A stretch of 64,000 nt of DNA from Chondrosia reniformis. Lineage: Eukaryota > Porifera > Demospongiae > Chondrillida > Chondrillidae. The stretch lies in the NCBI GenBank assembly GCA_947172415.1, contig OX359195.1:2666001-2730000 (forward strand), read 5' to 3'. The notes beneath the pieces are model-generated. The model saw only the letters and a program-made list of their open reading frames with translations, made no database searches and was not told the origin of the DNA. The position numbers were made by a program, and so were the translations under genes. Shown here piece by piece: positions 3,544-41,900 of the stretch (its first letter is position 1; the number at the start of each line of letters is the position of its first letter).

Positions 3544-6500
3544 ATGATACCAAAGGTACCAAACTATTGGAAAGTCAAGGATTTTCAGATCTCCTCAAAA
3601 AAGAAGGTATGACTTCCATGGAGATACCTCCTAGAGAAGTGAGGGAGTTCCTTCAGAAGTCTCTCCATCCAGCCCTCGAGTGGTGTGACGTGAGAAGAGT
3701 GGCAGATCACCTGAGAGCAGCTAATGTTATCTCAGCTGACGAGTGTGAGACTCTGAGGGACCATCAGAAGTGGGAGGATGCTAACAGGTTCCTGTACAGT
3801 CTCCTTGAAGGAGATCCTTGTTGTGACAAACTGGAGGCTCTCTGTGATGCACTACAGAAGGACACTACTCACAGAGGTCACGGGAGACTGGCTGAACTAG
3901 TGAAACAGTTCCTACCAGGTCAGTAAACCTTCTTGAATGATATGTTAAACCACAACTGTTTTATTCTGTGCATTGTATAAATAAGAATTGACAATCTCTC
4001 AAGTGGTATAGATTTATGGATTGACAATCCGTTAGAACAATTATAGATCTGATTATAACTCCCTGAGAATGTTTGGGACTTTAATTCCTTCCTTCTTTAG
4101 AAGACTCTGTTCCACCTTCTAAGAAACCGAAATTCAGTGATGGTGAGTATCACATGTAATAGTGTTAGCAGTTGGTTCTATAGTAATGTCCACATAATTC
4201 AATGTGACAGTCTGTTTATAATTAATCAACACGATGATCACTAGTCTGTATTGAGTAGTGTCAGTATAGAGCTAGTTCCATCATGTAGATCTTACATATT
4301 GAGATAGTTCTCCATAGGCCAGACTGCTATCTAACCACCATATTTATTTGAGAATGTAAAAGGAGAAGTGCAAGTGATATGAATAGAATGTTCTTTACTT
4401 TATTAGGAGAATATGAGTCATCAGAGTTATCCCAAACAGAACCACAAGTCAGTCAAACTGCAGACCAGACAGAACCACAAGTCAGCCAAACTGCAGACCA
4501 GACAGAACCACAAGTCAGTCAAACTGCAGACCAGACAGAACCACAAGTCAGTCAAACTGCAGACCAGACAGAACCACAAGTCAGTCACACTGCAGGCCAG
4601 ACAGCAACCATCGCAAGTCAGTCAAACAGTTGTATGCCTTATATATGTTATTCATATATTCATATATTCAAATACTGCAATGTTCAAGTACTGCATGGTA
4701 AATGAATACTTGTGAAACCAGTAGCTATACCATTTCACTATATAGTCACTATATAGTCAGTATATCACATATATAGTGCTTATAAGGTAGACATGGTAGG
4801 TCACCATTAGTATAATTGCAGTTTACCATTTTGTAAGTATATACAGATATATGTGTACGTAAATGTACTAGTAGTTCATTTTAAAATTAACATTTCACAG
4901 AATGTACATATGCTACAATAACTAGATAACTTTAATAAGGTTTTAGTATGGCTTCCTGTTCGTAACCTTGTATATATAGTATTATCATAGAGTACAGTAG
5001 TACTCTATAAGTAGGGATGGCCGAAAAAAAACATGGCCGCCCTATCTAATTTATTATCAATTAACACCTCGTAATTCAACAACAATAGGATTTTCGGTTA
5101 TATTCGAGTGTTTGCAGTCGTTTTTGCATGCTTTTCTAAAAGCCAAAATATGTTTCGATGCTCTACAACCTTCGCAAAGTGGTAAAACCGAAATAGGCCA
5201 AATTCTGAAATTCCTCATTTTTTCTTCTTCTTCTTTTTTCAAATGAGCTAGCGCTAACATACGAACTTACGCAGGTACATACAAATACTAAATCGTCATG
5301 AATGTTTCCGAACTAGGGAATAGGCTACCCTAGATTTCAAACGCGCCCCATCCGAAGCGTGTTACTTTTGAAAGTTCCAAATTTAGGGCCTCTTTGAACG
5401 CCATTTTTTAATTAAGTTTCAAATTCTCTGTATATAAAATAAGTAACTCGAGTTAGATATATTTGTAGTACTGCCGCCACCCGCGATCAAATTTCTTAGT
5501 CGCTTTGCAAGGCCTATATACAGTCGTATTCTTAACGATTTTGGACCCTTTAATATCCTTAACTGAATGTTAAAGAACGGTAGAAAACTTATTGTACAAA
5601 TTTGGGATCTTTTCGGACGCCATTTTTTAATTTAGAACTCTAGCTTATATCGTCTATGAATCTGCTACTTTATTTCGAGTTTTCGCCAAGAATACGTTCG
5701 AAACAGATGTTAACTAGAAAAAGGGGCAATACAAGTTAAATAAAAACATTCAAAAATGAAGTTAAAAGTAGGGATGGCACTATAACAGTGATTGGCACAT
5801 CTAGAAAAGTAACGAAACAAGAAAGTGATCATATGGTAAGGCTAACATTGCAGAAGTGGCATACTGAAACTTATCTGTACACATCACTTCTATGTTTGGG
5901 CGCATCAATCCCTACTTCTAGTATATCCATGATGCGCCCACACTTCTACACCTGCTATCCTTCTACAGCCTTCAAACCAGGCCTAGGAATATATATAGGC
6001 CCATTTCCAAAATTCATTTTTTCTTCTTTTATTGAATGGTTAGCGCTAATATGCGAACTTATACGGGAACGTAAAAGTTATAAATCGTCATAAATATTCC
6101 AGATAAAACTCTCTTTCCAAACGAATTGCCATTTATAACACAATTGGGCGCACCAAGCTGAAGTAGGAATGGTGTGCCCAAACACAGAAGTGTATGGTTA
6201 AGTTACTTAAATTTCAGTATATACGTATGCAACTTCTGTAGGATTAGCCTTATTGTATAATCACTGTACATGTCTTGTTTCGATACTTTTTGCAGATGTA
6301 TTAGTGAACACTGCCATTCCTACTTCTAACATCATTTTTGTAAATGTTTTTTATTTACTTATCTCTGTATGGAGGACCCAAGTCTACTCTTATGTTTAAA
6401 CACTGCTTCTGTAAGTAGTTCAGTGTTACATTCTCTAATTGACAGACCATGAAGAGCAACTAAAGCAGCTGTGCTTGATCCCATTTGGGATACAGTCTCT

Positions 6501-9500
6501 TCAAGTAGACCAAACTGGAGGAAGGTTCAGCTTGGAACCAGAAGGAGACAGACCGGCGGAGAGTGACGTCACTCATCTGGAGATACTAGAGGGAGCTGTT
6601 GCTGAGAAGAGGAAGGTGCAGATCAGATATGGTATTATAATGGATGGTCCTCTGGTGGCACCAACTGGTTATAAACTGGCCAGCCCTGTGGTGTACATCC
6701 ACTACAACAGTAAAGACATCAAGAGTCCCATCACCCTCCACCTTCCTCACTGGAGTGCAGATGCTGACAGAGTGAAGATGATGATGGCACCTCACTCTCC
6801 TGTGAATGACAAGTTCACATTTGAGGACTATGAAGGGGCAGGTAATGGCAGGGATTTCCTCCTAACAGGACACTGCACCCTCTTTACTATTGCTTCACGT
6901 TTAAGTGATCCTTTTGAGTATCTTGCTTCTGCTTGGCAGTATGAGTCAAAGGATGGCAGTATAACAACACGAATAACTGCTACTTACAAACATAATGTTT
7001 GGATCCAGGTTCGCGTTTAGCTACTTTTTAAAATCTCTCCTGTTTTTTACTATAACTTATGTGTTTTTATCTAGATAATAGAAAAGTATTGGGAAAAATT
7101 TTGCAGGGTTGGACAGACTTGTCACTTCAAATTTTTGGAAGGGGAAGAAATATTGAAGTGTAAGCTGAAGCCTGGTTGTCATGGTGTAATTTCGGGATGC
7201 TCAGAGGTTGGTATATAGCTAGTACACAACATTTAGGATTATGTATACAATTACATGTAATGATTGTAAGTTATATGAAATGGATGTGTTTTGAATTTCA
7301 ACTATATATTATAATTGTTAAATGGTGTATTTACGTAGTTCAAGCAAACTTAAAAAAGTGATATACTCTCATCCAAATTTAACTAATAGTAATTCCCTTT
7401 TCTGAATATCGGAGTTAATTAAGTGGTACTATTTGCTACCAGTATTTGAAGTTAACCTACCCTAAATATACTTACATTAAAATCTGTGAAGGACATTTTA
7501 AACAAACTGGTTGTTTTTCAACTTAAAGGAATAATCTACATACGTAAATCATTTTGATTCTAATTTATTGAGGATTGTCTGTCCTGTATGTTGAATTGTG
7601 TGTATAGCCCTCATATTATACATATGTACATACATAGTTAGAGAGGTCCTAGATCTAAAGTGTCTGTTGGACATGTACAGTCATTCCATCTTGGGAGGTC
7701 ACCAACATACGTACATACAAAATTCACATTAAGAATGCAAAACCTGTACTTTTACATTTTGAACCGTGTGAGTGTACATCTTTCATTGGAATGTTAATTA
7801 AACTATATAATGTAACTATATAGCAACATGTGTTTTCATTCACTTATTTATTATCTTGGATTGATCTTGTGTTTGTGTATACAGATTAAGAAGGATGATA
7901 TTGTGTATCCAATTGGAGATAAAAAGAAATTAAAATCTGATTTTAAAGTAGAAATGTATCCTCCATTTCTTACTCTTGTACCAAATCGTGGGTCCACTTC
8001 TAAAGATCCACCTTATGAAAATGTGTCTCTACAAGGAATTGATCACAGTATCTCTTTTCATTGTGATCTACTAGCTCTTAAGAAAGGTATGTTTAATGTA
8101 CATGTAGTTTCTTACTATCAAATTACAGTGGAACCTCTATAATCTGACATCAATGGGGTGAGAAAAAATGTTGGATTATAGAGAACTAACATTTACGTAT
8201 ACGCTGTAGAGTATACCATACAAACTATGCTACATAATATGCAACAAAATTATGGATTAAAGTTAAGATTTGAAGTACGTAGCTGTACATGTCCAGAGTG
8301 CTTTGCAGCCTTGTGGAGTCTTTCTCCCTGATGATTTTTCCTTCCACCTCTTGGACAAGCTTGCAGCAAGTAGGAAGCAAATTGGAATTGTGGCAGGAAA
8401 AGTATGTACTGACCTTTCCAAGGCAGTCAAGAACCTCCCTGGTCATTTGGATTCGTTCCTAGGAGAAAGCCTCCTCTTCTTCGATCACCTCCGCATTTGG
8501 TACACTGCTTCCAGGAAGATTATAAACAGATCTGAATTCCTCCAGCTGTGTCCATCAGTAATTGGAATTCCTCCTCTATGTGTTCCTTGAAAAATGACTC
8601 TTCCTGCTCCACTTGCTCTACCCATTTGAACCCACAGTATGTGAAGCACTTCTTCAGCTCTGAGCAATCCAGTTGATGGCATGCAGTACATTGACCTGCT
8701 TGGACAACTCTGTGGCTGAGTTACAACTATTCATTTGTGCCAAAATGTGACTAAGGAGATGCTTGCACAAAAGAACCTTGAACATTTTGGCGATTCTGGC
8801 ATCCAATGACTGGAGGCATGAGGTTGTGTTGGCTGGGAAGAATGTCACTGTTACATTTGACAATGAAACTCCAGTAGATGTGTGACTGGAGACATTGTCC
8901 ATGTACAGGAGAATGCTTTGTTTGTGAATCCTCATTTTTCTGTTTAAGTCCTGGAGCCAATCTGAAAAATCTTTGCATTCATCTAGGTATTATTGTTGTT
9001 GCACCATGAGACACCAAGCTGGTCAGTAGCGATCCCCTTGAGGGCCCTGGGCTTGGCAGATTTCCCGATGATGAGGGACTTAAGCTTTTCCCCCTACTGA
9101 ACTACAGGCTAGTAGCACAGTCAGCCTCTCTCAGTTGCTTAACTTTGCACCTTTTACATCTTGCTTCTTTCTTTCCAGTGTCCTGTCTGGCAAGGCTCAG
9201 TAAACAAACCGGTTTTGTTGCAATTGAAACTATCCTAGGGCTTGAACTGGGAGATCAGGTCAGGGAGTCTTTCTTGGAAATCTTCCATGACATCCGCATC
9301 CACATCAGTGCTTTCCCCTGAGATCTTAAACTGCTTAATGTTATAGTGCTTCTTCCAGGCGGTCAACCACCCATTACTGACCTTGAAATCCTCGAATCCC
9401 AGCACATCTGTAATAAGGATGGGGACAAACAATTACTTTGAGATAGTCAGAGGATATAGCAAGCGTCCGACAACACCGCAATGAACAGCAATACGATTCA

Positions 9501-12500
9501 ATCAAGGTACAGCTACAAGAACTCAAAAGGATTAACTAACACGAGGACACTAAAACACGTTACTTCCGTTCATATATAATTGAGTTCACAGGTAAGTGAG
9601 AACACATACACTAATCTGACAGTCAGGGGGCATACCACACACTTCCCCCCTAAGTCCTACAAGTTCAACATGCATAGTTAAACGTGCCCATAACGTTCCA
9701 CTGGCTTCACAGCTCTTCCACTTCGAGTAGTCACGCAAGGAGGACAGGCCTGACTTGTGGTGGTCGTGGCTTCTAGATCTGGTGGTCAGCGTGCATCTCC
9801 TCAGTTTCTTCAGAGCTCGGAGGAGTTGCTCCAGCTGTAGAGGAATAAAGTGGCTGCAGTTGAGGGTCAGAAGGCGGTGCAGAAGGCAGCATTGAGGAAG
9901 CCCCTACATTATCCTCGTGGTGAAATAGGGGAGGCGACCATTCAGCCTGTGGCTCCTGATTTTTGCTTTCCTCTGTGAGCAGGGGGCGTACACGATTCAT
10001 GTGCACTGCACGATTTGTGGATCCTAGGCGCAGCAATACTGTTGTGGGCCCTCTCAGGCCACTGACTGTCCAGGGACCTGTCCATCTTGGGTCCAGCTTT
10101 CCCCTGGCAGGGTTGTTCAGTAGCACCTTCTGCCCAACAAGGAGTCTTGAACTGTTTTCTCTGTCTTGGCCAGCTCGACCTTGACGATATGCTCATTCCA
10201 CAATGTTTGCATCCACAATCTCTCTCAAATGAAGAAGCTTGCTCTTCAGGTTCATGCTGTAGTCTGAGGGTTCAGGAATCACAGTGCCAGGCACGTCTGG
10301 GATTTGTAGAGAAGGCGGATTACATCCAAAGAGAACCTCGTAGGGTGACATTCCAGTCGAAGCATGTTTTGTTGTTCTGTACAGGAACAGGAGCAGCTGT
10401 AAGTGTAAGTGTTTCTCCCACTCCCCCTCCTTTTCAGTATAGGAACGCAGTAAGTTTAGGAGTGACCTGTTCATACGCTCCACTAGGCCATCTCCCATTG
10501 GGTGATAGGGGGTGGTGTGGGACTTTCTCACGCCAAACGCCTCACATAAATCACCAAGGACTCGGCTTTCGAAATTTCGCCCCTGATCCGAGTGGAGCTG
10601 TTGAGGAGGACCAACCAGGGAGAAGACGTTGTCTCTCAATGTTTGTACTATCCTCTCCGCTTTCTGGTCTGGCATTGCCTGAGCGAAGGGCCACTTTGAA
10701 AAGTAGTCTTGGGCCACCAACAAGTACTGGTTTCCTGTGGTGGACATGGGGACCTTGAGAATGTCGACAGCTACAAGTTCCCATGGTCTTCTGGCAATCA
10801 GAGGTTGTAGAGGGGCAGGCTGGTTGTTTGGAGCCTTGGTGAGTTGACAACGTACACAGAACCGGCAGTGATGGGCCACATCTCTTCCTAGTCCGACCCA
10901 GTAGGCAATCTGTGATTACCTGGCCATGGTCCTGTCAATGCCCTGGTGTCCAGACTCTTCATGAGACCTGCGCAGAAAGTCCGGCTGTTTAGATTTGGGG
11001 ATAATGAGTAACAGGGAGTCTTCTGACAGGGTGGGTGACCTCACCTTGCGGTACAGGACATCATCATGCTGAATCAACTGGGACCATATTTGCTTGTAGC
11101 GCTTCAGGGGATAATACCCCCACTCCCTTGTAGCAGGGGGTGTCTGGTGGCGTTCAAACAGGTCTATAACCTTGATTAAAAGTGGATCCGATCTCTGGGC
11201 CTGACTGAATTCGTGCCTGTCCAGAGGGGAGCGCAGAGCCACCAGTCCAATGGGCATCCGAGAGAGTGCATCTGCATTTTGGTTGGTTGCTCCAGGCTTA
11301 TAGACTATGTTAAACTGGTAGGCCCTGAGCTCAAGAGACCACCGCTCTAGACGTTGTGATCGGGCATGGCTGGTTCTGGCGGACTCCAGCCATTCAAGTG
11401 GCTTGTGGTCTGTTTCCAGAGTGAAGGGTGCTCCGACCACATAATGACGTAATTTGCGGACAGCCCAGACAATGGCAAGGCACTCCTTTTCTATTGTGGC
11501 ATACTTCTTTTCCGCTGAAGAGAGTGTTCGACTGGCATATTCCACCACTGTGCCACGTGAAGTTGAGAGAACTGCGCCCAGACCAACATAGGAGGCATAT
11601 GTGGTGAGAATGAACTTGTCAGTCTGTCTTGGGTAGTCAAGGACTGGGGGTGATATTAGCGCCTGTTTCAAGGACTCAAAGGCTTTTTGATGAGTGTCCT
11701 GCCATGTAAAGGATACCTTGTTCTCAGTGAGACTGGTGTGTGGGGCAGCAAGATCAGCAAACTTGGGAATGAAACGCCTGTAGAAGTTGACAAGACCCAG
11801 GAAGGACCGGACTTCCTTAGTAGATGTGGGTATGGGCCACTTGGTAATTGCTTGTGACTTTCCTGCTGCTGGGGTCACTCCACTGCCTGTGTACTCAAAC
11901 CCCAGGTGAGTTACCTTGTTTCTGCCAAAGAAGCACTTTGAGCCACGAAGTGTGAATCCAGCCTGGTGGAGTCTGCCAAGAACACGTCTGAGGTCTTTGA
12001 TGTGAGACTCCATGCTATCCGAATAAACAATGCAGTCATCCACATAGTTGTCCACACAGTCCTTGCAGTCTTTCAAGACTCTGTCAAGTCCTCGTTGGCA
12101 TGTCTGTGTGGCTCCTGTTAACCCGTATGGCATTACAGTGAATTCCCAGAGTCCATATCCTGGTCCTGGACAGAATGCTGTTTTTTCTATGGAAGGGGTG
12201 CTCATGGGGAACTGCCAGTAGGCACTCCGAAGATCGATCTTGGAAAAAACCTGTTTGTGAGCAAGTTTTTGCTGTGGCCCCTCTGCCCTGGGTACTGGGT
12301 AGGAATCTTTCTTGGTGGATTTGTTGAGCTGTACATAGTCCACGCAGATTCGGATTTCCCCATTGCTTTTGGGGACATAGACGGCTGGGGCGCTCCAGGG
12401 GCTCTTGCTAGGCTGAATTATTCCTGCCTTCATCATCTCCTGCAATTGGTCATGTACTTGTTTCTTGTAATGGAAAGGTATCGGGCGGGGCGGTACCCTG

Positions 12501-15500
12501 ACTGGAGGGGCATCAGCTGTGTCAATGACATGTTCTGTGATCTTCGTGCTGCCCAGCTGTGTGGTAAACAGCATCTGGTGTTCCTTCAAGACTTGGCTTA
12601 GTGCTGGGTGACAGTCTTTAGGCATATCCAGTTCGTTTTGGCTACTGCCCTTGAAGGGCATGGCTTGGGGACAGTCATCGTCTAATATCAGATTGCAGGT
12701 GGGTGGGCTTGTACCCAAGCTCAGCTTGCCTTCCTTGGTGGGAGACTTCCTGCTGCTGAAGGTACCTTTATCAAAGTCAATGATCAGGCCATGCTTGGTA
12801 AGAAAGTCACATCCCAGTATGGCAGGTGCTGAGAGGCGTTCCACTACCACAAACTTCTGGGTGGTTGTTAGGTTGGGTATTTGGACTCTCATTGTGGTGA
12901 CCCCTGATGGGGAAAGACCTCTGCCATCTGCATTGACTAGCTTTTCTGGACCCATGGCTCCTAGGTTGCCAGGCCTCACATAGTCTCGGCATACGACTGA
13001 GCAGGATGCTCCAGAGTCCAGTAAGATGTCAACTGCCTGATTGTTTAGCTGCCCCTGGGTGTAAGCTGCCTTGGCAGTGTCCATGTAGCCTGACAGTGAG
13101 GGTATTTGCTCCAGTTCTCGAGCGTTCAGTTGCAGCGGGGAGCGCCTCTTGCTCGAGGAGTTGAGACGCTCCCCCTCTCGTTTCCCGGAAGGTGGCATTG
13201 GCGGGCAATGTGTCCCTGACCTCCACACCGGAAGCACTCTATGTTCTGAGTTGGTGCGGACCTGCAGTTCTTTGCTAGGTGGCCCAGTTTTCCACAACGG
13301 AAGCATCTAGGACGGGCTGCTGCTTCTGAGCGGCGTTTGCCCAAAACAGCCAGTTGCTCCGACACCTGGAGTATGGCCTCTTCTAACCTATCCAAACGTC
13401 CATCTTTGGGTGCACTCTCTATTTGGATCACTGACTCAGACTGGCGGTGAAAAATTAACCGAAGTTCCCTTGCCTTTGCCACTGTTTGGTCATAGGTCTG
13501 TTTTGGAAGCAATTTCATCTGGAAGGCAATCTTCTCTGGGAGTGCTGCTACAAAATGGAAGCGAAGCTCTGTCTCTTTGGCCTCAGCCGAAAGGTCTGGG
13601 GAGGCCCTTTCCAACAGCTTTTCAATGTCCCGCGCCAATTCATCTACACTCTCTTGATCACGAAGTCGCCTCCTGGAGAGTGCGTCGCAGGCGCTCAGTC
13701 TGTCCTCATCTGTGTCCGGACTCAATCTCTCAAGGATAGCCGTCTTCAGACTATCGTAGGATTTCTTCTGCTCCTCGGACAGAGCGTCAAAGACGGCCCA
13801 CGCTCGGCCACGCAAGAGGGTCGGCAGTCGCAGGAGTTTCTTTGCTGCGTTCCACTCATTAGCCGCAGCACAAACTTCGAATCGCTTGAACCACGACTTT
13901 GCATCATTGTCTAGAAGGGGCTTCGGTAGTGCAAGGCCAACGTTGGAAGCCATTCCCGGGTTTCGGCACCAGTGTAATAAGGATGGGGACAAACGATTAC
14001 TTCGAGATAGGCAGAGGATATAGCAAGCGTCCGACAACACCGCAATGAACAGCAATACAATTCAATCAAGGTACAGCTACAAGAACTCAAAAGGATTAAC
14101 TAACACGAGGACACTAAAACACGTTACTTCCGTTCATATATAATTGAGTTCACAGGTAAGTGAGAACACATACACTAATCTGACAGTCAGGGGGCATACT
14201 ACACATCCATGAACATTAGCACTTTGCTCTGAATAATAGGTCCGTTGATAGGGATGTCCTTTGCCCTGGCTTGCGAGAAGGAGTAAATGAGCTCATTAAG
14301 TGACTCTGTTGGTGTAATCTTCACAATTCTCAGGTGTTTAGTAGTGCAAATACTGACTGTGTTTCCGTATAATATCACTAATGGTACTCCTTCCTATGCC
14401 AAACTGTTTGCTCAGATCACCTTGCCTGGGCTTAGAAATAGCTTTGCTGGCTCTTATCAAGTTGATCTTATTCTCAAGAGTAAATTCGTTGTGTCCTCTC
14501 CTCGATGAACTAGCCATTTATTTCCAACACTTAGGAGCAATGCCAGATTAGGCAGTGAATTTTACGTGATTTGGAGGGAAAATGGTGTCAAATTACGGAT
14601 TATTGAGTTTTCCTGATTACAGAACATGTTTGATACACGAAATCTGCCTGTGCCTCAATTTTTTGTCGGTTTGCACCTAATTTCAGGTTATAGAGGAGTC
14701 AGATTAAGCAAGTTTCACTGTGGTTCATTGTATATAACGCAAGTTTTAATTTTAATGTAGATTCATCCTTCAAGAATGGATCAGCAGCCAAATTAGTCCC
14801 AGAAACAAAGGAACAGCAGCAAGGTACATATGCAGACTATTAATGTATTTAAAGGCCTTACCTACTTCACTTTGACTCTTCTTACTTCCACTTGTTACGC
14901 TCATCTAATATATATATTATATACCTATGTAGGTATATAATACAGGTGCATACATATACATTGATCATTAAATTACTTTATTAATATGTATTTGCAATAA
15001 TACTCTATTTAGTGTTTATTTAACCCTTGTTTAACTGGTACGCTAAAATACTAAGAAGGATAAGATATGATTATCCTCTTACAGAATGAGACTAATATAA
15101 TTATCTATCCTTGGGCTAGTAACCTTTTGTACAAAACATGAAAACATTTATTTTTACACTGATTAGTGGTGCAGGCTGACTGCCATTGCAATATCATTAC
15201 TATATAGCAGTTATGTTATTGAGTGACAACAATAAGAATTTTTGTTGTAATAATGAAAGGTTTCAACCCATTCAAACGTATTTCAAAAATTCTTGCTGCT
15301 GTCGATTAATAACTTTGCTTACTCATCATGATTGCAAGAACTACTCCCTATCATTTCATCGTAAACTATAGCACTATACGTACATATTTGAGCCATGTCT
15401 TCATTAATTCACAAGCAATAACTTTGTCTATTGGCCTACGCCTGTGAAAGGTTGAAATTTGCCAGGAGACACTTCAACACACCTGTTATAGTTTAAGAAT

Positions 15501-17279
15501 TTAACTAAAAAGCTGCTATCTAGACAAAATCAGTTGAAGCTAACATTTTTACTATACGTATATACTTAACCTACTAGCATTCCTATATATACCATAGATT
15601 TTTGTTTGATTATACAGATATTTTGATTTTATATAAACATGTTATTCTCCGAATTAGTTCAAATAATCAAGGTTCCACAGTCATTTATATAAATAATTTG
15701 GTTGTATGCTTGGAAAGATATGTATGGGTTCTTACTCAATTAATATGTCACTAAATTTACGGTAGACGTCAAAAAAGTTAATGTTTCGTTCGTTAAGTCT
15801 AAGCCAGAACGGCGTACCGTTTTGTTTCGACTTAGTCTTCAATTCGTCCCAAAGCGTTTCTGATCGTCCTTATTATAGGCCTACGAAATGAATAAAAACG
15901 ATCAATCGTCTATTGCTTGCGTTCTGACATTTTGTAAATTACTGTTAAACACGTGGATACTTGTTTAGCTTATTTGTGAAATACTTTGACAATTGTACAA
16001 TAATTAACACGAAGCGTTTCTCACGTGCATGCGTTCCTACGCAAGACCGTTCCGCATGATTTCGAAAGTACAGATGATTGTTTTTCGAAGACGATCGATC
16101 GTTGTGTATCGTCTTCACACAGTTTTCATAGGAACAAAACGCCATATAAACGAAATGAAACATTAACTTTTTTTGACGCCTACCGTACATACGCGTATTT
16201 GCAAATGGTGCAATTTGGGGAGCTTAAGTTTTATATCAGTCTTTATAATTTTGAGGATACTTAATGGTAAAGGTTCCAAATTGTTGAGATACTATTATAA
16301 AGAGGCCTGCAAAGCGGCCAAGTAATGTGGTGTAGGGGGGCAGCAGCCAGCCCCACAAATTTTTAACTCATATTACTTGTTTATTACTTCAATTTATTTA
16401 GTAAAATTTGCTCTTTTGACTGCCAATGTTACTGAATTGAAGACAGTGAGACACTTCTTTGGTAAGAGCCACCCTGGGATGAAAGAGTACAGCTACAGCT
16501 ACAAAGAGGAGCCAGACTTAGTAGAAGTTGTTAAGTTTGAGCCTGATTATTGTATTGATAGTAGAGAGCAGCTTGGCTATGATCTGATCACTATTGGTGA
16601 GGTTCAAGGAATTCACCTGAAATGTGGTTTCAAATATGGCACTGAGGCAGCACGAAATGCAGTTGAGGATATTATGGATGAGGCAGCAAAAAAGGGATGG
16701 CAGCTTGAGATAATATTCTGCATTGGATGCTGTGGGTGCAGCGCTGGAACAGATCAGAATTATCGTGGTCATGTGCTCATCTCTGATAAGCTTGTAGATT
16801 ACAACCAGGGCATATATGAAGTCAATGGTCAAATACACAAAGATAAATCATATGCAATGAATGATGACTGGTGTAAAAGGTTGACCGAAATGGAAGAAGG
16901 ACCAAATCCAGTAAAAGTAAGCCAGGCCGAGAGTATTTTGTCGGGAGATTGGGTCATGAAAAATAAAGAAATTGCTGGCAACCTTCGTGGTAAACAAAAG
17001 CTCGTTGGTATAGAAATGGAAGGATCCGGTATTGCCAAAGTGTTGGACGCTGTTAACCGACCCAGGAGTAGGTACAAGCTCCCAGGGGGCATGCGACAAT
17101 CTGATTTCCTCATTGTCAAAGGTGTGTCAGATCATGCTGGACCTGATAAGAATACGCCACAGCCTACCCGGTACCATGGCAATGAGACCACACCTGTTGA
17201 TGATGAAAAACGACAAGTAATGGCAACACTGCAGTCTACTGCTCTTGTGTGCAGAGCCATAGCCAAACATATTAAGTAA
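3544..17279 (+). CDS. CARD-like / ZU5-like / nucleoside phosphorylase-domain protein
   Basis: Exons 3544-3918, 4101-4142, 4407-4616, 6446-7008, 7075-7206, 7885-8086, 14761-14823 and 16402-17279 keep one reading frame to the TAA. In order they encode: a death-fold (CARD-like) domain (REVREFLQKSLHPALEWCD ... ANRFLYSLLEGDP); a basic linker; the repeat QTADQTEPQVS; a ZU5-like domain (SPITLHLPHWSAD ... FLLTGHCTLFTI); two exons that may be a UPA-type partner; and a terminal exon of about 290 residues of the PNP_UDP_1 superfamily. The last shows IIFCIGCCGCSAG (nucleobase loop), VGIEMEGSGIA (the Glu that binds ribose in MTA/SAH nucleosidases) and GVSDHAG (the catalytic Asp motif), so it could be active. 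The donor at 7206 (GTTGGT) is weak and is placed by phase. The first exon has no ATG at its 5' edge, which supports joining to the upstream LRR exons; otherwise M at 3609 could start the protein. The intron between 8086 and 14761 is swollen by nested transposons. Confidence 0.75.
4437..4592 (+). repeat. 33-bp coding minisatellite (11-residue repeat)
   Basis: About 4.5 copies of a 33-bp unit in frame, encoding QTADQTEPQVS. The same unit forms the second exon of NLR-B. Because the unit is a multiple of three, copy-number change keeps the frame. Confidence 0.9.
4990..6330. repeat. Intronic block of diverged inverted repeats
   Basis: An inverted pair (left from about 5766, AAGTAGGGATGGCAC; right ending about 6335, GCCATTCCTACTTC) suggests a roughly 570-bp MITE. 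The motif AGTAGGGATGGC also starts near 5011, and CCTACTTC/GAAGTAGG recur inside (about 5910 and 6160), which points to nested copies. No coding potential is supported. Confidence 0.5.
7207..7884 (+). other. Intron of the ZU5/PNP gene
   Basis: AT-rich sequence between two ZU5-region exons. I see no exon, RNA gene or clear repeat in it. Confidence 0.5.
9409..9639 (-). repeat. 3' LTR of the gypsy element
   Basis: Matches 13973-14203 apart from about five substitutions. A polypurine tract (AGGGGGGAAG on the minus strand, about 9641-9650) lies directly inside it, marking this as the 3' LTR. Confidence 0.92.
9773..13306 (-). pseudogene. pol: gypsy pol with two in-frame stops
   Basis: One frame runs from 13306 to 9773, with stop codons at 10916 (TAA) and 10193 (TGA). 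Domains in order: aspartic protease (DILLDSGASCSVV), reverse transcriptase (active site YVDD, SKIDLRSAYWQFPM), RNase H (FTLETDHKPLEWL), integrase zinc-binding (HHCRFC-VRC), integrase core (AVDIL, HSDQGRNFE, GLVERMNRS, giving D, D and E), and a C-terminal GPY-like part (DPRWTGPWTV). The first stop falls between RNase H and integrase, the second after the core. The ORF edges at 13306 are not a true start; translation would come from gag. Confidence 0.9.
13126..13953 (-). CDS. gag: gypsy gag polyprotein
   Basis: The start is the ATG at 13953, right after the primer binding site, in preference to a more upstream ATG inside the LTR. The product is about 275 residues. It has a retrotransposon gag region (NDAKSWFKRFEVCAAANEW), then two CCHC zinc knuckles (CFRCGKLGHLAKNC and CFRCGGQGHIARQC), which bind RNA. 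Its end overlaps pol by about 180 bp in another frame, as expected for frameshift expression of pol. Confidence 0.9.
   Translation of the reverse strand: MASNVGLALPKPLLDNDAKSWFKRFEVCAAANEWNAAKKLLRLPTLLRGRAWAVFDALSEEQKKSYDSLKTAILERLSPDTDEDRLSACDALSRRRLRDQESVDELARDIEKLLERASPDLSAEAKETELRFHFVAALPEKIAFQMKLLPKQTYDQTVAKARELRLIFHRQSESVIQIESAPKDGRLDRLEEAILQVSEQLAVLGKRRSEAAARPRCFRCGKLGHLAKNCRSAPTQNIECFRCGGQGHIARQCHLPGNERGSVSTPRARGAPRCN
13973..14203 (-). repeat. 5' LTR of the gypsy element
   Basis: Partner of 9409-9639. A primer binding site (TGGTGCCGAAACCCGGGA on the minus strand, 13954-13971) follows it at once and ends directly before the gag start codon. Confidence 0.92.
14824..16401 (+). other. 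Intron before the PNP exon
   Basis: AT-rich intron holding one MITE (15760-16185). No other feature is supported. Confidence 0.5.
15760..16185. mobile_element. MITE with TA target duplication
   Basis: The left end CGGTAGACGTCAAAAAAGTT is matched by an inverted right end (AACTTTTTTTGACGCCTACCG). TA flanks it at 15758-15759 and 16186-16187. It is 426 bp, with no coding sequence. This is the Tc1/mariner style of ends. Confidence 0.8.
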
Positions 17280-21318: not shown

Positions 21319-22631
21319 TCAGATCAATATATGTTCTGATTCTGAATATGATTCTGAACTAGAAACTGAGCTGGAGCTGGTAATAGAGTCACTACTGCTT
21401 CCCGATTCTGATTCTGCTTCCTCTAATTGGGAATGGAGATGCGGTAGTGTCCTGGTATCTCTAGAAGGTGCAGGTCTGTCAAGTGAGGACTCCAGGTCCA
21501 CAGACTGTATTGACCTTATGGACATGTGACCTGTCAAGGGAGGCCTCTGGGGAGTGCTGAAACCAATGGGAGGCTTTTGAAATATTAATATTGGCGTTTC
21601 CATGGTGGCAGTTGCCATGGTGATGGGACTAGATGGACCTGCAGGTGTGCCAGGTATGGATCGATGCCTCTTCTTCAAGAGGTTGTGGGGGAATGAAATC
21701 TCTGGTCTGCTGATGAGATTGGATAAAAGCTGGTTTTGGTGTTGGTTGTTTGTTGTGAAGAGGAGCCAGTTGTGGTTGGGCTGGTCTGGATGTTGCAGGA
21801 AATCGGTTCCAGTAATAAGATGCCTTATCTGGTGTACTGGGTGGTTTGGACGGTTCCGTAAGTGGAGGTGATGTAGTGGGCTGAGACTGAATCCGCCCTA
21901 TTGGGGGTTTGACAGGGGGAAGTGTCACTGGGGTGGCTGGTACAGATGGGCGTGTCACTGGTGTGGCTGGTACAGATGGGCGTGTCCCTGGGGTGGCTGG
22001 TACAGATGGGTGTGTCACTGGGATGGTTGGTACAGATGGGTGTGTACCTGGGGTGGCTGGTACAGATGGGCATTTCACTGGGGTGGCTGGTACAGATGGG
22101 CATTTCACTGGGGTGGCTGGTACAGATGGGCGTGTCACTGGTGTGGCTGGTACAGATGGGCGTGTCCCTGGGGTGGCTGGTACAGATGGGTGTGTCACTG
22201 GGATGGTTGGTACAGATGGGTGTGTACCTGGGGTGGCTGGTACAGATGGGTATTTCACTGGGGTGGCTGGTACAGATGGGCGTTTCACTGGGGTGGCTGG
22301 TACAGATGGGCATTTCACTGGGGTGGCTGGTACAGATGGGCATTTCACTGGGGTGGCTGGTACAAATGGGCATGGCACTGGGGTGGCTGGTACAGATGGG
22401 CGTGTCCCTGGGGTGGCTGGTACAGATGGGTGTGTCACTGGGATGGTTGGTACAGATGGGTGTGTACCTGGGGTGGCTGGTACAGATGGGCGTTTCACTG
22501 GGGTGGCTGGTACAGATGGGCGTTCACTGGGGTGGCTGGTACAGATGGACGTGTCCCTGGGGTGGCTGGTACAGATGGGTGTGTCCCTGGTCTGGCAAAT
22601 GGATCATGTGACAGGGGAGGTGGTTTCATAA
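21319..22631 (-). pseudogene. Pro/Thr-rich 10-residue-repeat protein, frame broken
   Basis: Starts at an ATG at 22629 (MKPPPLSHDPFARPG), with an upstream in-frame TGA. It consists mainly of about 22 copies of a unit like VPATPVTRPS, then a Pro-rich stretch, and ends in an acidic/Ser tail (EESESGSSSD-type, with SSSSVSSSESYSESEH). A 1-bp loss at about 22525 breaks the frame inside the array. A second change of frame near 21660 joins the array frame to the tail frame; this one could be a small intron. The product looks like a disordered or mucin-like protein. I do not recognise a family. Sequencing error in the array is an alternative to true decay. Confidence 0.5.
21920..22590. repeat. 30-bp minisatellite, about 22 copies
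   Basis: Unit GGTGGCTGGTACAGATGGGC plus GTGTCACTGG. Higher-order order is visible: a run of about eight units (around 21930-22130) is repeated at about 22130-22340 with the same variants, including the GGGATGGTTGG variant. It codes for the 10-residue repeat on the minus strand. The long frames on the plus strand are shadows. Confidence 0.95.
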
Positions 22632-23040
22632 TGAGACATCAAGAATCAATATATTACTGTTTGCATGACAGAAATAGTATGGATGACATTGGTTTGATAA
22701 AGGAATTTCCCCTTCAAAACACCATGTGAAATATTTCCTTAGTAGCTTCAAATTGATTATTAATAGCTAGAAAAAAGATTTGTAGAAATATCTTTGCATT
22801 TTCACGCATAAACACATTTTTCGTGCTAATCCAAACTATATATATATTCGGCACATTTGGTTACGATGGGCAACTAAAGTGTCACATATTCTAGTCAGCC
22901 TAGGGTGATTGGTGTGCTGTCGTCAAGAAATGAGTCTCAGAAATCCCTAAAAGCCAAAAGTAAGATCATATCAATAGATAGATCTCTACTGTGCGTTTTC
23001 TATCTTTATGTTCACCTGTATGGATGGACACTTTAATAAC
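22632..23040. other. Intergenic gap
   Basis: Nothing recognised between the start of the Pro/Thr-repeat gene and the promoter-like block upstream of the Roc/COR gene. Confidence 0.4.
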
Positions 23041-23165: not shown

Positions 23166-23472
23166 GGGAACACATCCTTTCAAACCCTTTATTTTTCGGT
23201 TTCACGCAAACGATGAAAAAAGCTGTACTTGATGTATGCTTGGTGTCTTCATAGCACGTATTTTTCACGAAGTTCCTAAATTTGCGACATATAATGCTGT
23301 TTGGTTTGACTTATTGCAGTATTATTATTTTTAGTGGGGCTACTGTATTTATATTTGTTTGTATAAAAAGAGTTTAATCCAACTAATTCCTACAATTATT
23401 GTCACTGATGTACATATATCAATTAGCAGACTACAAAGAAAGGACCATTTAGGTATCCTTTTGTGTGTGTAG

Positions 23473-25945
23473 GTATGGCTTCCACAGAGATACCTTCCAC
23501 AGAGAGAGTTAGAGAGTTCCTCGATGAGACTGTCCATTCATTTCTTGGGAGATGTGATTTCAAAAGAGTTGGTGCTTCTCTGAGAGCAGCTAATGTCATT
23601 TCAGTTGGAGAGTTCCAGGGACTTCAAGTTTGTCTCCTGTTGGAGGATGCTAACAGGTTCCTGTACAGTCTCTTGGATGGAGACCCTTCTACAAGGAAAC
23701 TTGGAGCTCTCTCTGCAGCACTGAAGGATGACACAACACATGACGGACATCAAGAACTAGCTCAACTGATTGACCAGTTTCTACAAGGTGAGGTCTCTTT
23801 TTACAGGTTACTGTAATTTGGGGAAGTACTGTTGCCATGGTAGCTCCTGAGTGGGTGGGAGTATGCAGCAGTAGCAAGGATAGCATCTGGAAACTGTATG
23901 ACCGTATACACAAAGGGAATCTGATATACTCCGGGATATGAAGGGTGATATCTACAAGCCTAAGGATCAGGATTCCCCCAAATTAGCCCAAGACAAGGAG
24001 GACCTAACAGATGACAGCAAGATTGAGAAAAGTCCATCTCCTAAACTGGAACAGGAACAATCATGCACTACAAGCAGTGAAGTGGTACAGGCTGGATCTC
24101 TTCAAGAAGCTAAAACTAGTATTCCAACTCAGCAGCAGTTACACAAAGCTAAACCAGAGCAAGAGAAAGAGATTTCTCTTGATGAAGGTAATGCGGAAAG
24201 CCTTGAGCATGCAGTGGAACAGAGTGATAGTAAGCCCCCCAGTTCAGGGCTTCAGCTTCTCAATGATGCTTACTCTGATAAAGAGAAAGAGTTTCGAACA
24301 AAACTCTCAGAAGTTCAGCAATCAGAAACTAGGTCACACAGAGAACGAATTATTCACTTTATAGACACGGGGGGACAGGCAATCTGCCATGATGTACATC
24401 CAGTCCTCATCACATCACCGAGTGTCTACCTACTGGTGTTTAGCTTGAAAGATTTGCAAGATAATCCCAGTGGCTGACTTTTTGAGTCATGACCTCCTTG
24501 TGAAAGCTCTGCGTAGCATACAAACACTGGGAACCAAGCAACCAGAGAATAATGAATATCTTAAGCTTCATCCCAAATACCCAAAAATCTTTATAATAGG
24601 AACTCACCTAGATCAGATCAATCCCAAAGAGTGTGACGACTTCCTACAAATGGTTCATGATAAAGTGGAGGCCAATTTAAAAAACAAGCCGTACTCTGAT
24701 TATGTGTGTTATGACACAAATGGCCGCTCATTCTGGTCAGTGGACAACACTCAGGCAGGAGACAAGGCTGTTGATCAGGAATATTACAATGGTTTGCGTA
24801 GAAGAGTTCAATCAGGATCAACCACTTTTGAGGTCACCTTAAGCTTATATACCTCCCTCCTGGTACCTCCTTGAACACTTTACTCATCAGCATAAGCAAA
24901 AGTGCCTCTTGTATTCAGATCTCAAAGAATTCTCGGCCAAGCATGACTTTGTTAAGAAGGAACACTTCAGAGCAATGGTGGACCTCTTTCACGTTCTCGG
25001 CTTCTACTATTACAAAATACCACGTGGATATACTGAGGAAGAGAGTATCATTTTCACAGATCCTAACTTTCTTTACAGAATGACTTCTAAACTGCTTCAA
25101 AAAATAGAGAATGAATTGAAATCAAATGCCGAAAGTAAAATCAGTCCGAAAAACGTGTTCATTAATGTCCTCAAGTATCTTGAGAGATGGATGACTTGAA
25201 GGACACAAAGATTGATCCCAAATGGTTTGTTGCTCTTCTTGAAGAGCTATTCCTAATAGCAAAAATTGAATTTCAAGAAAGCCTATCTGATCTCTCCCCC
25301 TCCTCTTGGATAGTTCCAGCTGCCCTTCCACGAGGACCCGAAGCAGACCCATCTGATAACTCTCTCTTATTTACACTGATAGCCCCAATCACCAAGTCAA
25401 TTCCCTTCATTCCAAGTGGACTCTTCTGTTCACTCATGGCAAGTCTAACCAGTCGAGGATGGAGACCAGAAGAATTCTACCGCAACTATGCAGTGTTTGC
25501 TGTGTCAGCATCGTGTCATGTAACCATTCGAGAACATGATTCCTTCATAGAGGTGTCCTATGAAACGATTGGTCGGTCCTCTGAAGAAGAGTACAAACAG
25601 GTCACTGTTCGAGAGACCATTTATCATCGCCTCTTGAAGATTCAAAAAGTCGTGTATAAGGATCTTGGTAGCAGCACTGATCAGCACTTAGCTTCTGCTA
25701 CTCGAGTATGCCTCGGGTTCCTTTGCACGTGTAGAGGAGGAGTATTTTCTCCGCATGATGTGCCAATTTCTGAAAAAGTTGAGCACGAATCCATTACTGG
25801 TGCTTCCCAAGTGCATCCCCCAGCTGCACTATTTCATTTTGCTGAGTATTTAGAAGAAGATATGAACATTTGTGCAGAATGCACTGAACCAGAAAGTAGC
25901 TTCTTTCAAGACGTCACTGAGAATCAGTTACAATGGTTTTATTAG
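23473..25945 (+). pseudogene. CARD plus Roc/COR-like GTPase gene, decayed
   Basis: The first exon (23473-23787, M at 23475) encodes a CARD-like domain close to the one at 3544 (ERVREFLDETVHSFLGRCD ... ANRFLYSLLDGDP). After an intron, 23938-25945 encodes a low-complexity Lys/Glu linker, a GTPase switch region (IIHFIDTGGQAICHDVHP), the guanine-specificity site (IFIIGTHLDQI) and a long COR-like region (LGFYYYKIPRGY ... NFLYRMTSKLL; SIPFIPSGLFCSLMASL). No P-loop (GxxxxGKS/T) is seen before the switch. Frame changes lie near 24470, 24840 and 25190. Together these argue for a pseudogene, although short introns or assembly errors could explain some breaks. Related intact proteins pair death-fold domains with Roc-COR GTPases. 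Confidence 0.65.
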
Positions 25946-35900: not shown

Positions 35901-38900
35901 CCTTCTCGTTCTTTCACTGAGGATTTTCGAATCCTACTCCTTCGCCGACCCACGCCGTACCTTCTCGTTCTTCCACTGAGTAATTTCGACTTCTCGTCCT
36001 TCGCCGACCCTCGCCGAACAAGTGACTAATCAATCGATTACGTTTTTTCATTCTGCTGCGTCATCATGACATTTATTATAATAATATAAACTTCATGTGC
36101 GAGTCACATGACATTCACGCTACTTCCTGTAAATGTTCGAATATTTCACACCTAAAAGCGGCTTCAAAAAATCGGAACTATAACGGACATGTTCCACATG
36201 CGACAGTAAACATAAAAATGGAAAATCGCTAAAGTTAATACCTGCCAAATACAAGCCTATTCAAACGGCTAAATTTAGTAGCCTTAAGGTACATATACTT
36301 GTGTTCTCACTTCTTTATGTTAGTTAAGGGGAATGTATAATGTGGCATAGTATGCGTACCTTCACACAAATAGTCTAAACACATGTAAAAGCAATGTGAG
36401 GCAATTGTCTTTCCGGAACTTGAGGACATTGCCTCCTTAAATGACAAATGCATATATTAATGCTTGACAATGTATATACGTATAACACTTATGCCATGCA
36501 CTGCACTTCAATGTGTATGGATTTCGGAGATACAGTAGTCGTTTATAAACCACAAGTATTCTCCATTCATTCTCATCTCACAATATATATTTTATTAGTG
36601 TTTTACATGTCTCAATCACTTTCTGTTCTGCTGCTATTGTGTTTGTAGGTCCATCCACCAGTCAGTCCAAAGATCCAACGACTACAGACACCAACCAGAT
36701 CTCTGATATTGTACGTTTACATGTACCTCTTAATTAGTTTATTACATGTGGTAGAATTTACGTACTTATAGAAAATAGGGGGATAAGATCTAAAGCCAAT
36801 CCTAAAGCATCAATATCATTCAAAGTTTAATGATGATGATATTGATGCTTTAAGATTGGCTTTAGATCTTAAGTCCCCTATTTTTCCATATTAGTGGTCA
36901 GCCACACTTTTGGCTGTACCCCTTATCTGCTGATAAGGAAACCACAAGCTTTTTTGCTTTTGGTAGTACTTACAATAGCAGACTAGCCACTGAAACGTCC
37001 ATTGTATGTCATACTGATGAGTCCTAATAAGGAAGAAACAGCTGTCTATGGCCCGACCATCTTTTTGAGTGGCTAAGGGGAGACTCTGGTTCCCATCAAG
37101 CAAACTTCAGTTCTGCCCATTACCTCATTGCGCTCCTCAGGGGACATGAGTATATAATATCCAGAGTTCAATGATGATGTTACTTGTAATTAATCTGTCA
37201 CCAAAAACAGTTTATATTATACGTTTTATATCTTAAAGGAGAAATTAATTTTAACATATTTTTGTAAATCCATTACTTTATAGGAGAAAGCCATTCAGAA
37301 CCTCAAATCACTCTACAGAGGTCCCGTCATAGCTGACCACTGGCTACTGAAACTAGCTGAGATGGAGTTTTTTAGCCTTCACTTGGTCAATCCCTCTGAT
37401 CTCAAACCGAGAAGAGCAGAAGATGCTGCAGCTGTGAAACTTGCCTGTTCTACACCACATGGAAGGGAACCTTTCAAGGGAGGACCAATCCGCCTTCAGG
37501 AGATCTTGGAGTATGAGCCTGTGCGACCTCCAAGGAAACGCATCCTGCTAGAAGGAGAGCCTGGTATAGGCAAGTCCACTCTGACCAAACAGCTGTGCTA
37601 CAAGTTTGCTGAGGGTACATTTGCCAGTGAATACAAGCTAGTCATTCGCATAGTACTCCGAGGTCTTCCTTCCGATACCACACTGAGTGTAAAGGACCTA
37701 GTTCGCAGCTGTACCAGTGATGTTGGGACTTCACTGCAGAAAGAAATTCCTTCCCTCTTGAGTCAGTTCATTTCCTCGAATAATGGAGAGGGTACGCTGT
37801 TCATCATGGATGGCTATGATGAGTTCCCTGAAGAGCTACAGAAGAAATCTCTGGTTGCAGACATTATAAATGGCAAGACCCTCCCCCAGTCATCATTCAT
37901 CATCACATCCCGACCACGAGCATCAGCTCCTCTACATGACAAGATAGACAGACGCATCGAGGTGATTGGATTTGGAGAGGAAGATATTGAACAGTTCACA
38001 AAAAAGTACTACAGAGAATCATCTGATTCTGCAACTAAATTAATAGAAAGGCTGAACTCTACCCTGCCTCGAATCAAAGCCATGTGCTTCATCCCTCTGA
38101 TCCTGCTGATGACATGTTATGTCAATGATGTCCTTGGTGCCCCTCCCGATACAATCAGTGATCTATTTAAAAGCATCATCTGCCTCACTGTGAAGCGACA
38201 CTTTGAGAAGAATGGAGTGAAAATGGAAATTGGCAGTTTTGAGGATGTCCTGCGACTCTGTCCCTGTTTGATCAAACTGAGTCAACTTGCCTTGGATGGT
38301 GTGCAGAAAGAGGACATCATTTTCCACAATCTGAAGCTGTCAGAAGATGATCATTTTGGTCTAATGAACTGCATCTCTTATCGAAGTGCCTCTGGTGGAG
38401 TCACTGGATCATACCACTTTCTTCACAGAACAGTTCAAGAATTTCTTGCAGCTTGTGCAGTCAAGCAGTTACCTGCCGAGGAACAGGGAAAGTTCTGGAA
38501 AGAGAGACTTGTTCTTGGGTACAACAAGAGAGGAGAGTTTGTTTTGTCAGACTCCCACTACGAGATGCCATTCCTTTTCTTCTGCGGCATTGGAGGACTA
38601 GAGAATGATGCTGTGAGAAACCTCTTGTTTGAGCATCTTGCGTTTACCAATGATCGCAGGTTTGCTGGAGGGACCCCTTTTACTGAGATTACTACAGCAG
38701 TAGCAGAGAGCAGAGATGAAGAGCTGTGTCAAAGGTTCATGGAGTATTCCAGTGATGCTCACATTAGTTATCTCAGTTCCCATCAGCTCAACAGTTTAGC
38801 ATACCTGATGACCATCAGCAGACATATCAAACAATTTTCAGACATTTCATCTGATACAAGTGATTCCTTTTTTAAGCAAATATCTGAAAAAGTGACATAT

Positions 38901-41900
38901 TTGGAAGAAGTCACAATTACAGGTAAGTTGATATTGTAATTTTAGATGTGTGAATGAACACTTTTGTAGACTGTTGACATGCCATGTGTAGAAGAAGTAG
39001 AATTAATACATCCAGTAAAGTGTATTGATTGCTCCTAATACCTTAATCTTGTGATTATTATTGAACTGTAAATATTCAACTTGACTGATGACACTCATCA
39101 CTTTCCTTCTATAGTTTTCTCAAAAAGACTAGAGTTTGTTGTACTTCAAGACTTTCTTAAGTTGCAAAGTTCACTAAATAACCTGACCTTTCAAGAATTG
39201 GTATGTTTGCAGTCCAACCCAGAAGTGTAGTTTTATGGCTTCTTTAATTGTTTTGTTTTGTAAATGTATTCCACACTTATATACAGTAAATTTATGTAAG
39301 TATATAGTACTGTATAATATACATGGTACATTTTACATCTGTACAGATACTTAGACCTAAACCTTTGGTGAGAGAAGCTTACATTTCAGTGATGTCTGAC
39401 ATTGTTTCATCTCATTCAAAGAGACGTGAACACCTTGCAATGCATTTCAATAGTAAGTCATGTCAACTTTGTGTGAATATCATTGAAAGTGATCATCTAA
39501 ATATAGTCACATGTGACAGTCACTAGTGTGTGTACATACTGGACAAGTCTGAGTCACTTGTGTTGTCATTCACTGCACAAGTCATGAGTTGTGAGGTTGC
39601 TAACTTTAAATGATACCACACACATGTGGAACATGTCCGCAAATTTTTGATTTTTGTAAATCGTCATATTAGCGCCTACAGAAGTGTCACATTCCAGGTG
39701 GAAGCGTCTTTAGCATGTGGACCTGCGCGTGAAGCAGAGCACCCAGCACTGAAACGTCACGAATTATCACTAGTCGTTATAGATGTCAAATTATAGTATA
39801 GCGGAGGAAGGCCAACGATGGAAGAAGGCCAATGACGTAGGAAGGCCAATAAAGGCGTACGTGACGAATTCATTCTATTTTTCTTTTGATTATACTACAT
39901 TAATAATCAAAGAAGAAAATAACGTTTCGGTCATGTAAGCCTTAATTCCTCATTATACTACGTTAATATTCAAAAGAAGAATAGAACGTTTCGGTCACTT
40001 AGGCCTTAATTCCTCAGCCATTAATAATAGCTGAGGAATTAAGGCCTCCTAGACCGAAACGTTCTATTTTCTTTTGATTATACTTCGTTAAATGCTCATA
40101 CATTTTCACCATTGATAATTACATAAATATTAGTAGACATGCAATATGCTTCTGTTTCCACTTACCTCTTACGACAACAAAAACTTCGATCAAGGAAACT
40201 GTATTGCTACCTATCAACTTTGGAAGTCTAATATTTGTATAACGCGTTACCAAATATTTCGGTGCATATGCAACGTCATAAAACGACCCCCACCAGCAAA
40301 ACAACCCCCACCAGCAAAACAACCCCCACCAGCAAAACAACCCCCACCAGCAAAACAAACCCCACCAGCAAAACAACCCCCACCAGCAAAACATACCCCA
40401 CCAGCAAAACAACCCCCACCAGCAAAACAAACCCCACCAGCAAAACAAACCCCACCAGCAAAACAAACCCCACTGGCTGACATCAACATTGACAAAATGC
40501 CCTCCTTTACAACTCCTGGGAAGCCAAGTGGATGCAAGGGTATAAATATAGAGCCTACTGGCACAATTCTCTTTGTGTTTGATAAACCTGAGCCATTTGA
40601 ACCCCCAATGGATTCTCCATCTGAGGTTCAAATAGCTGCGGTTAGTCAAGCTGAGAATTGTACCGATGTTTCCCACATATGTGAAACTGACTGTCAGCAA
40701 GCCAATGGAAGGGAAGCTGAAATCAATTTGGATGAAATTTGGTTAGATAACTTTCAGAGGGAAGAAAGGTTTTAGCCATCTGTTGGTTCCACTTCCAATT
40801 TTAACGAAATCACTGATTCGCTAAGTAAAATGGTCACTATACTGGAAAATCTGAAGGAGAACACTGATAACATAAGGAGTCAAGTGCAAATCCTAACAAG
40901 AATGATTGACAGCCACATAGAATCTTGTGATCAGCCCATACTGAAGTTGAAGGAGAGTGCATGACACTAAGAAGAAAGCATCCTCAAGATACCAACCCAG
41001 TGAGCCTTTGAAAAGAGAACCTGTATGATGCTACTGAGGGGACCGGAGAAAATATGGTGAAGATTAAACCCTATTTCATCAAATCAGTCAAATCTGAAAA
41101 GGAGCCACCAAGTTCAGCCATCAATGTAGGAGAGTTAAAATCACCAGAAGAAATTTCTCCAAATACAGCAATTTGAAGAACGATAGCAAAATGGGAGCCC
41201 TTGCTGTAAAGCTTGCCCGAGAAGCTTACTTTGGAGATGCTGTCCTAATCCAATGCACACCTAGATGTTGGCAGGATATCCCAGCCCTGCCACACACTGA
41301 ATTGAACCAACTGAAGGCCAAGCTATTTGAAGCCTTCCCTGCCTTTTGGAGCAGCCCAGAATGTTTTGAAAAGAGGTGGCTCAAGATGCCATCTCACAAT
41401 GCTGTAAGAGGCTCCGAAGAATGAATCCGGGTGGTACCTTGCCTTCAGCTAACTGTGTGTAATATGTATAGTCATACTGAACTTGATCTATAGCTGCATG
41501 TATGTCTTTTCATTCATAGGTTTAATATATAATTATTATAGTCTAAGATCTTAACTGTAGTTTTTTTAGTAAGAAACCATTTATTTACTTCATAATCATG
41601 ATACTGTCAGATAAGAAAATAAATTTTAGTTTGTTACACCTTTGTATCATCAGAATTTCCTTTAATTAATTATATTTTGAATGAGTCATGCATGTTTTGA
41701 CTTTTTGAGCAACTGAGGATGTACATGGTTACATTTTTTGTCAACAAAACATTTAACTGACTGCATCCTTAGACAATTAAAATGAATTACCTACTCCAAA
41801 GTTCTATTTGCAGTTAGAATATACTCTATTTACATATGTTTATACGTAGTTTGTCTCTTAGTAACCAGTAGCGGCACCATTACAGGCAATTACAGCTGGT

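Follow-up and report, generated by a model that had tools for sequence, protein, structure and literature searches.

Proteins in which a ZU5 and a UPA module stand ahead of a C-terminal CARD or death domain include NLRP1, CARD8, PIDD and UNC5, and FIIND modules cleave themselves at an HF/S or SF/S site. A different arrangement is found in fungal NLR-like proteins, where a PNP domain sits N-terminally on NACHT or NB-ARC. Immune ATP nucleosidases reportedly occur in both bacteria and eukaryotes; we know of no ZU5-containing architecture among them. Here we describe a locus of the sponge Chondrosia reniformis in which these elements meet. We consider it reasonably probable that it is a lineage-specific chimeric gene that has exchanged its C-terminal CARD for a nucleosidase domain of the PNP superfamily with an effector role.

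The locus lies in a stretch of 64,000 nucleotides (termed the window), bases 2666001-2730000 of contig 7. The published assembly is given as 117.37 Mb in 14 chromosomes plus a mitochondrial genome (PMC12181767); the copy counts below refer to a genome of 117,379,552 bases in 15 sequences. Consistent with the original prediction of eight exons in one frame, eight plus-strand exons with GT..AG borders and exit phases of 1, 1, 1, 0, 0, 1 and 1 join into a single open frame, with a frame break in none of them, predicted from the DNA to encode 803 residues and a stop codon. Exon 1 (3609-3918) is CARD-like and opens with a Met at 3609. The gene had been predicted to start at 3544, where an acceptor is indeed in frame, but the Met of our model lies 22 residues further on. 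Exon 2 (4101-4142, phase 1-1) is a short linker placed by its splice sites and frame, and exon 3 (4407-4628, phase 1-1) contains the expected 11-residue repeats (QTEPQVSQTAD), which are also present in a neighboring NLR gene, NLR B. Exon 4 (6446-7008) encodes the ZU5-like domain; exons 5 and 6 (termed E and F; 7075-7206 and 7885-8086), which recur in ZU5 copies, occupy the UPA position behind it; exon 7 (termed G; 14761-14823, phase 1-1) is a linker native to ZU5 genes, with DNA homology over 14721-14880; and exon 8 (16402-17279) encodes an MTAN-like domain of the PNP/UDP superfamily and the stop codon. A Pfam scan of the whole 803-residue protein returned CARD, ZU5 and a mucin-like match only, all below their cut-offs, and no PNP, NACHT or LRR. 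The layout that had been read from the sequence, a death fold followed by a ZU5-like module and a PNP domain, is borne out at the DNA level by the frame, by family-level matches and by the fold.

Mobile elements are also present at the locus. Between exons 6 and 7, the intron holds minus-strand frames resembling the gag and pol of an LTR retrotransposon (9773-14061, named by eye) as well as a minus-strand DDE-transposase-like frame (8654-8989, by eye), and two segments with inverted repeats at both ends, at 2255-2750 and 15763-16186, resemble miniature transposons by eye.

The predicted CARD-like domain was recovered by Pfam with an E-value of 0.0014, but its 19 bits fall short of the cut-off of 23.9, and no close solved relative was found for it by sequence. 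The exon recurs at 19 further places on contig 7 with 87-97% identity (20 rows at ≥87%, the window included) and is 91% identical to its counterpart in NLR B, the NACHT of which matches Pfam with an E-value of 2.2e-27. At the DNA level, positions 3605-4558 are 87.6% identical to the CARD-repeat part of NLR B (L031), and in the four NLR copies compared, homology to the window CARD exon starts at 3605, which corresponds to their acceptor AG. The 3' leucine-rich-repeat exons of NLR B, assigned by eye, occupy 1-2195 on the plus strand. More broadly, at least 89 rows match the NLR B NACHT; 40 of them, all located on contig 7, are 84-100% identical over at least 420 of its 483 residues, and five of these 40 contain stops. 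The NACHT genes, many of them accompanied by CARD exons, form large arrays at 0.93-1.36 Mb and 2.35-2.77 Mb of contig 7, with one gene at 0.12 Mb, and also occur inside the window at 37284-38939 and 57552-59279. Elsewhere in the window, a CARD-like exon 57% identical to exon 1 but without a Pfam CARD match is followed by open frames that look GTPase-like by eye (23427-25945), and a long minisatellite at 21629-22729 leaves several frames open on both strands.

A search of the region 6446-8086 against ZU5 and UPA had been suggested. For ZU5, support comes from the family: of 17 aligned members, 15 match Pfam ZU5 (best 1.1e-5) and 11 have a FIIND match at E≤1, with the window itself at 16.7 bits against a cut-off of 21. 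UPA was not recovered, as exons E and F from five proteins gave no Pfam match at E≤5, and UPA is placed by position only. No close solved relative was found by sequence for the ZU5 profile, and the ZU5 structure model was unusable (pLDDT 44.7). At least 26 close ZU5 copies, the window included, are present in the genome. Among the matches listed, 25 further full-length copies are 82-90% identical, and within 1.5-kb flanks 23 of the 25 other close copies listed have exon E behind ZU5, and 20 have exon F; exon G follows exon F in L048, L052 and L055. Within the window, ZU5-family DNA homology falls into blocks within 6368-8119 and 14721-15165. Where the FIIND cleavage motif would lie, 14 close rows read GHCTL with no serine (judged by eye, with no aligned template), so the ZU5 part probably does not cleave itself as FIIND does.

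Downstream of ZU5, a CARD-like exon is present in all five copies with enough sequence (L040, L063, L064, L065 and L066), although that of L064 may be part of the unit that comes next, and L065 has a second F-like exon ahead of the CARD-like one. Three of these exons were scanned against Pfam CARD, which L066 reached below cut-off (E 0.00042) and L063 and L064 did not match, and the remaining ZU5 copies have no CARD within the 1.5-kb downstream flank. The PNP exon of the window thus takes the position at which sibling ZU5 genes have a CARD-like exon, in line with the earlier proposal of an enzyme in place of caspase recruitment. In a separate observation, a multi-domain gene that is ankyrin/GTPase-like by eye, followed by CARD-like exons, is found both ahead of and behind a ZU5 copy (L069 2152-6694 and L064 2804-7769); it seems that different N-terminal parts can be combined with ZU5 modules.

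Searched alone, the PNP exon matches no Pfam family at E≤1 and so stays below the PF01048 gathering score, and no close solved relative was found for it by sequence. The lack of a PNP hit had been named beforehand as grounds for rejecting the predicted PNP domain, and taken literally it is such a result, but it is outweighed by the agreement of three other lines of evidence: 13 of 24 family members match PF01048 at E≤1 (best 4.5e-5), the family profile finds MTA/SAH nucleosidases in the PDB (best E 2e-4), and a fold search with a structure model of the exon returns the alpha/beta fold of the PNP/UDP phosphorylase superfamily. Residues E11, E206 and D243 align with E12, E174 and D197 of MTAN; all 24 rows have E11 and D243, and E206 is missing in L020 only. 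The window therefore retains E206 and D243, the ribose-binding Glu and catalytic Asp singled out earlier, together with E11, and these acids favor, on sequence grounds, a hydrolytic nucleosidase. MTA/SAH nucleosidase, one of the activities first listed for this enzyme family, is only the nearest solved fold, and the score of 18.5 bits against the NCBIfam equivalog NF004079 is far from its cut-off of 169. The fold does not fix the substrate, because the structures matched also include futalosine hydrolases and phosphorylases of purine nucleosides and uridine; nor do models discriminate it for the window, which scores 18.9 bits with the conflict model and a similar 18.5 bits with the housekeeping MTAN model. 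Across the family, 22 of 24 members match PADLOC PDC-M60C (best 6.6e-12) and 13 of 24 the PN-superfamily effector. A motif scan of a genome collection (84,980 species per its description) matched 133 stretches, one of which was confirmed as a relative: a bacterial protein of 435 residues, 28% identical, matching PDC-M60C (3.1e-30), PN-superfamily effector (2.3e-18) and PF01048 (5.4e-14). L075 (3251-4558) encodes a PNP protein of a deltaproteobacterium that is extended at its N-terminus; a TIQQG motif occurs both in this protein and in the frame upstream of it, and the two are a possible defense pair.

The sponge genome holds at least 23 PNP places, the window included. Over the matched part, C11:2019705 (the C11 copy), C1:3270541 and C1:1656031 are 79%, 39% and 38% identical to the window, respectively. 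The C11 copy has a Death-like exon about 5 kb upstream of PNP (Pfam 21.6 bits, cut-off 22.6, E 0.00025), C1:1656031 has an upstream Death exon (Pfam 22.7 bits), and C1:3270541 has an upstream Death-like exon recognized by similarity to the NLR B exon; all three are putative members of the same gene as the PNP. At L027 (592-2934) and C1:1659979, four exons succeed one another on one strand: a Death exon (22.7 bits in Pfam), a divergent PNP exon that keeps GVGCCGAP, GVEMESAAY and KGVSDH, a second Death-like exon (by eye) and a NACHT exon. Together they are possibly an NLR with an N-terminal PNP domain. In other assemblies, long contigs carry PNP relatives 71-80% identical to the window (P0001, P0002 and P0004); since P0001 and P0004 can be told apart from the C11 copy by eye, family copy number may vary between individuals or haplotypes. 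A 926-bp contig, P0003 (99% identical), was considered as a transcript and dropped, as its first residues differ from the genome.

Parentage changes within the intron between exons 7 and 8. On the left, positions 15000-15165 are 79% identical over 179 columns to the ZU5-CARD copy L040; on the right, a weak block from 15162 (70% over 104 columns, E 1e-5) and blocks of 80% and 83% from 15328 match the intron that precedes the C11 PNP exon. The best estimate of the junction is an overlap of ATTA at 15162-15165, with the intron of a ZU5-CARD gene on its left and that of a PNP gene on its right; as the ends of local alignments are approximate, the junction is bounded at about 15150-15330. The putative CARD acceptor of L040 lies 51 bases past this point. 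In L063, the CARD-like exon is entered in phase 1 (G|TA AAA), as is the PNP exon of the window, so recombination within the intron can swap the two with the frame kept. The donor after exon G (CAGCAAG|GT) is also found in L063 and the acceptor before PNP (tttatttag) is as in the C11 copy; by this comparison, both splice sites that flank the new join appear to come from the parents. Eight domain queries were run by tblastn (E≤10) to look for a leftover CARD or Death exon in the stretch from ZU5 to PNP, and none of their matches there was better than E 2.6. Of the 23 PNP places listed, the window alone has ZU5 within 100 kb; the next nearest ZU5 copy is 120 kb away. A standing ZU5-PNP family was rejected because none of the other 22 listed places has a ZU5 copy within this distance, and the join of CARD-ZU5 to PNP looks, from these genomic neighborhoods, like a unique recombination.

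That the pairing occurs once among the PNP places listed, and that the PNP copy arrived without its Death exon, would also fit two separate units that are not spliced together, one a pseudogene left when a ZU5 gene was truncated by loss of its C-terminal CARD, the other a PNP copy lacking Death-domain exons. Survival of the PNP frame under neutrality would not be rare, as it stayed open in 9.8% of neutral random-change trials. We nonetheless regard separate units as rather unlikely, given phase-matched splice sites common to siblings at both ends of the new intron, eight exons without a frame break and signs of selection on the PNP exon. Compared with the C11 copy, the exon shows 32 synonymous changes at 189 sites and 74 nonsynonymous changes at 678 sites (dN/dS 0.59; Fisher p 0.032). 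With an outgroup, 14 synonymous and 22 nonsynonymous changes were placed on the window branch (p 0.021) and 10 and 23 on the C11 branch (p 0.28, not significant), while 37 (8 and 29) could be placed on neither; this is mild evidence for constraint on the exon sequence. Three recent copies elsewhere in the family have dN/dS of 0.97 to 1.42, which fits both fast-evolving immune genes and decaying copies.

The gene might instead be larger than eight exons. The small NLR B exon at 2172-2195 exits in phase 1 and could join 3544, which is entered in phase 1 and in frame, giving a CARD-NACHT-LRR-CARD-ZU5-PNP protein, NLRP1-like with an enzyme tail. By eye this exon has no stop, whereas the last exon of a neighboring gene, NLR A (L030), does, and the sequence that precedes the CARD exon in the four compared NLR copies is missing ahead of the one in the window. 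However, the CARD exon of NLR B appears to form the 5' end of the coding region and opens with a Met, exon 2172-2195 is tiny with no relative among the loci compared, and 22 open codons could arise by chance; such a fusion is quite improbable. Its fullest version, an NLRP1-like receptor transcribed from NLR B in which an ATP/dATP nucleosidase follows ZU5 in place of CARD, is more doubtful still. The PNP domain itself may also lack catalysis or have a purely metabolic background, and be used as a scaffold or to sense nucleotides instead of as an effector enzyme. The loss of the ME motif in L020 and loop residues unlike those of MTAN (GCCGC for GSAGG, K239 for R193) point this way; the three key acids, present in the window and conserved across 23 of 24 rows, point the other, and we judge an inactive or housekeeping role unlikely.

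In the chimeric gene that we favor, recombination inside a phase-1 intron would have taken the CARD exon out and brought the PNP exon in. Weighing against this reading are the CARD and ZU5 scores below cut-off, the undetected UPA and unusable ZU5 model, the weak block to the right of the junction, the single sibling CARD-like exon that reaches Pfam CARD, the weak selection signal, and the retroelement in the intron. The N-terminal CARD, presumably borrowed from the neighboring CARD-NACHT-LRR family, could draw the protein into a death-fold assembly, either with these NLRs or with further copies of itself, and the ZU5-like module could serve as a regulatory spacer. Clustering would then switch on the C-terminal enzyme, which is predicted to hydrolyze the N-glycosidic bond of an adenine nucleoside or nucleotide, and nucleotide hydrolysis may stop the infection or the cell. 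By analogy, ATP or dATP would be the favored substrate, because the bacterial relative matches conflict models and immune ATP nucleosidases are reportedly shared by bacteria and eukaryotes.

How, then, does the locus compare with known systems? Relative to MTAN, of the PNP_UDP_1 superfamily (PF01048), its PNP domain is 14-21% identical and about 60 residues longer, adjoins death-fold domains and scores far below the MTAN equivalog cut-off. Like the immune ATP nucleosidases, it would use a PNP-superfamily domain as the effector of an immune-type protein, and PADLOC conflict models match its family; those enzymes cut ATP, whereas for the window PNP ATP is a candidate substrate. Fungal NLR-like proteins likewise couple a PNP enzyme to domains of innate-immunity type, but here the PNP is C-terminal and follows ZU5. 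As in NLRP1, CARD8, PIDD and UNC5, a ZU5/FIIND-like module precedes a C-terminal domain; in the window, however, the tail is an enzyme, UPA was undetected and GHCTL replaces HF/S or SF/S (by eye). The three PNP copies C11:2019705, C1:3270541 and C1:1656031 are of the same family but have a Death-like exon upstream and no ZU5 within 100 kb. A single recombination would thus have let an animal immune-type gene trade a signaling adaptor for an enzyme, with relatives of both parents in the same genome and the break traceable in an intron. If the gene is transcribed and active, it would offer a testable case of an early-branching animal whose immune output consists in cleaving nucleosides or nucleotides, and if the fusion to NLR B were true, one protein would combine sensing with metabolic shutdown, with no caspases. 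The comparisons are at hand in the genome itself: siblings that keep CARD behind ZU5, and PNP siblings without ZU5.
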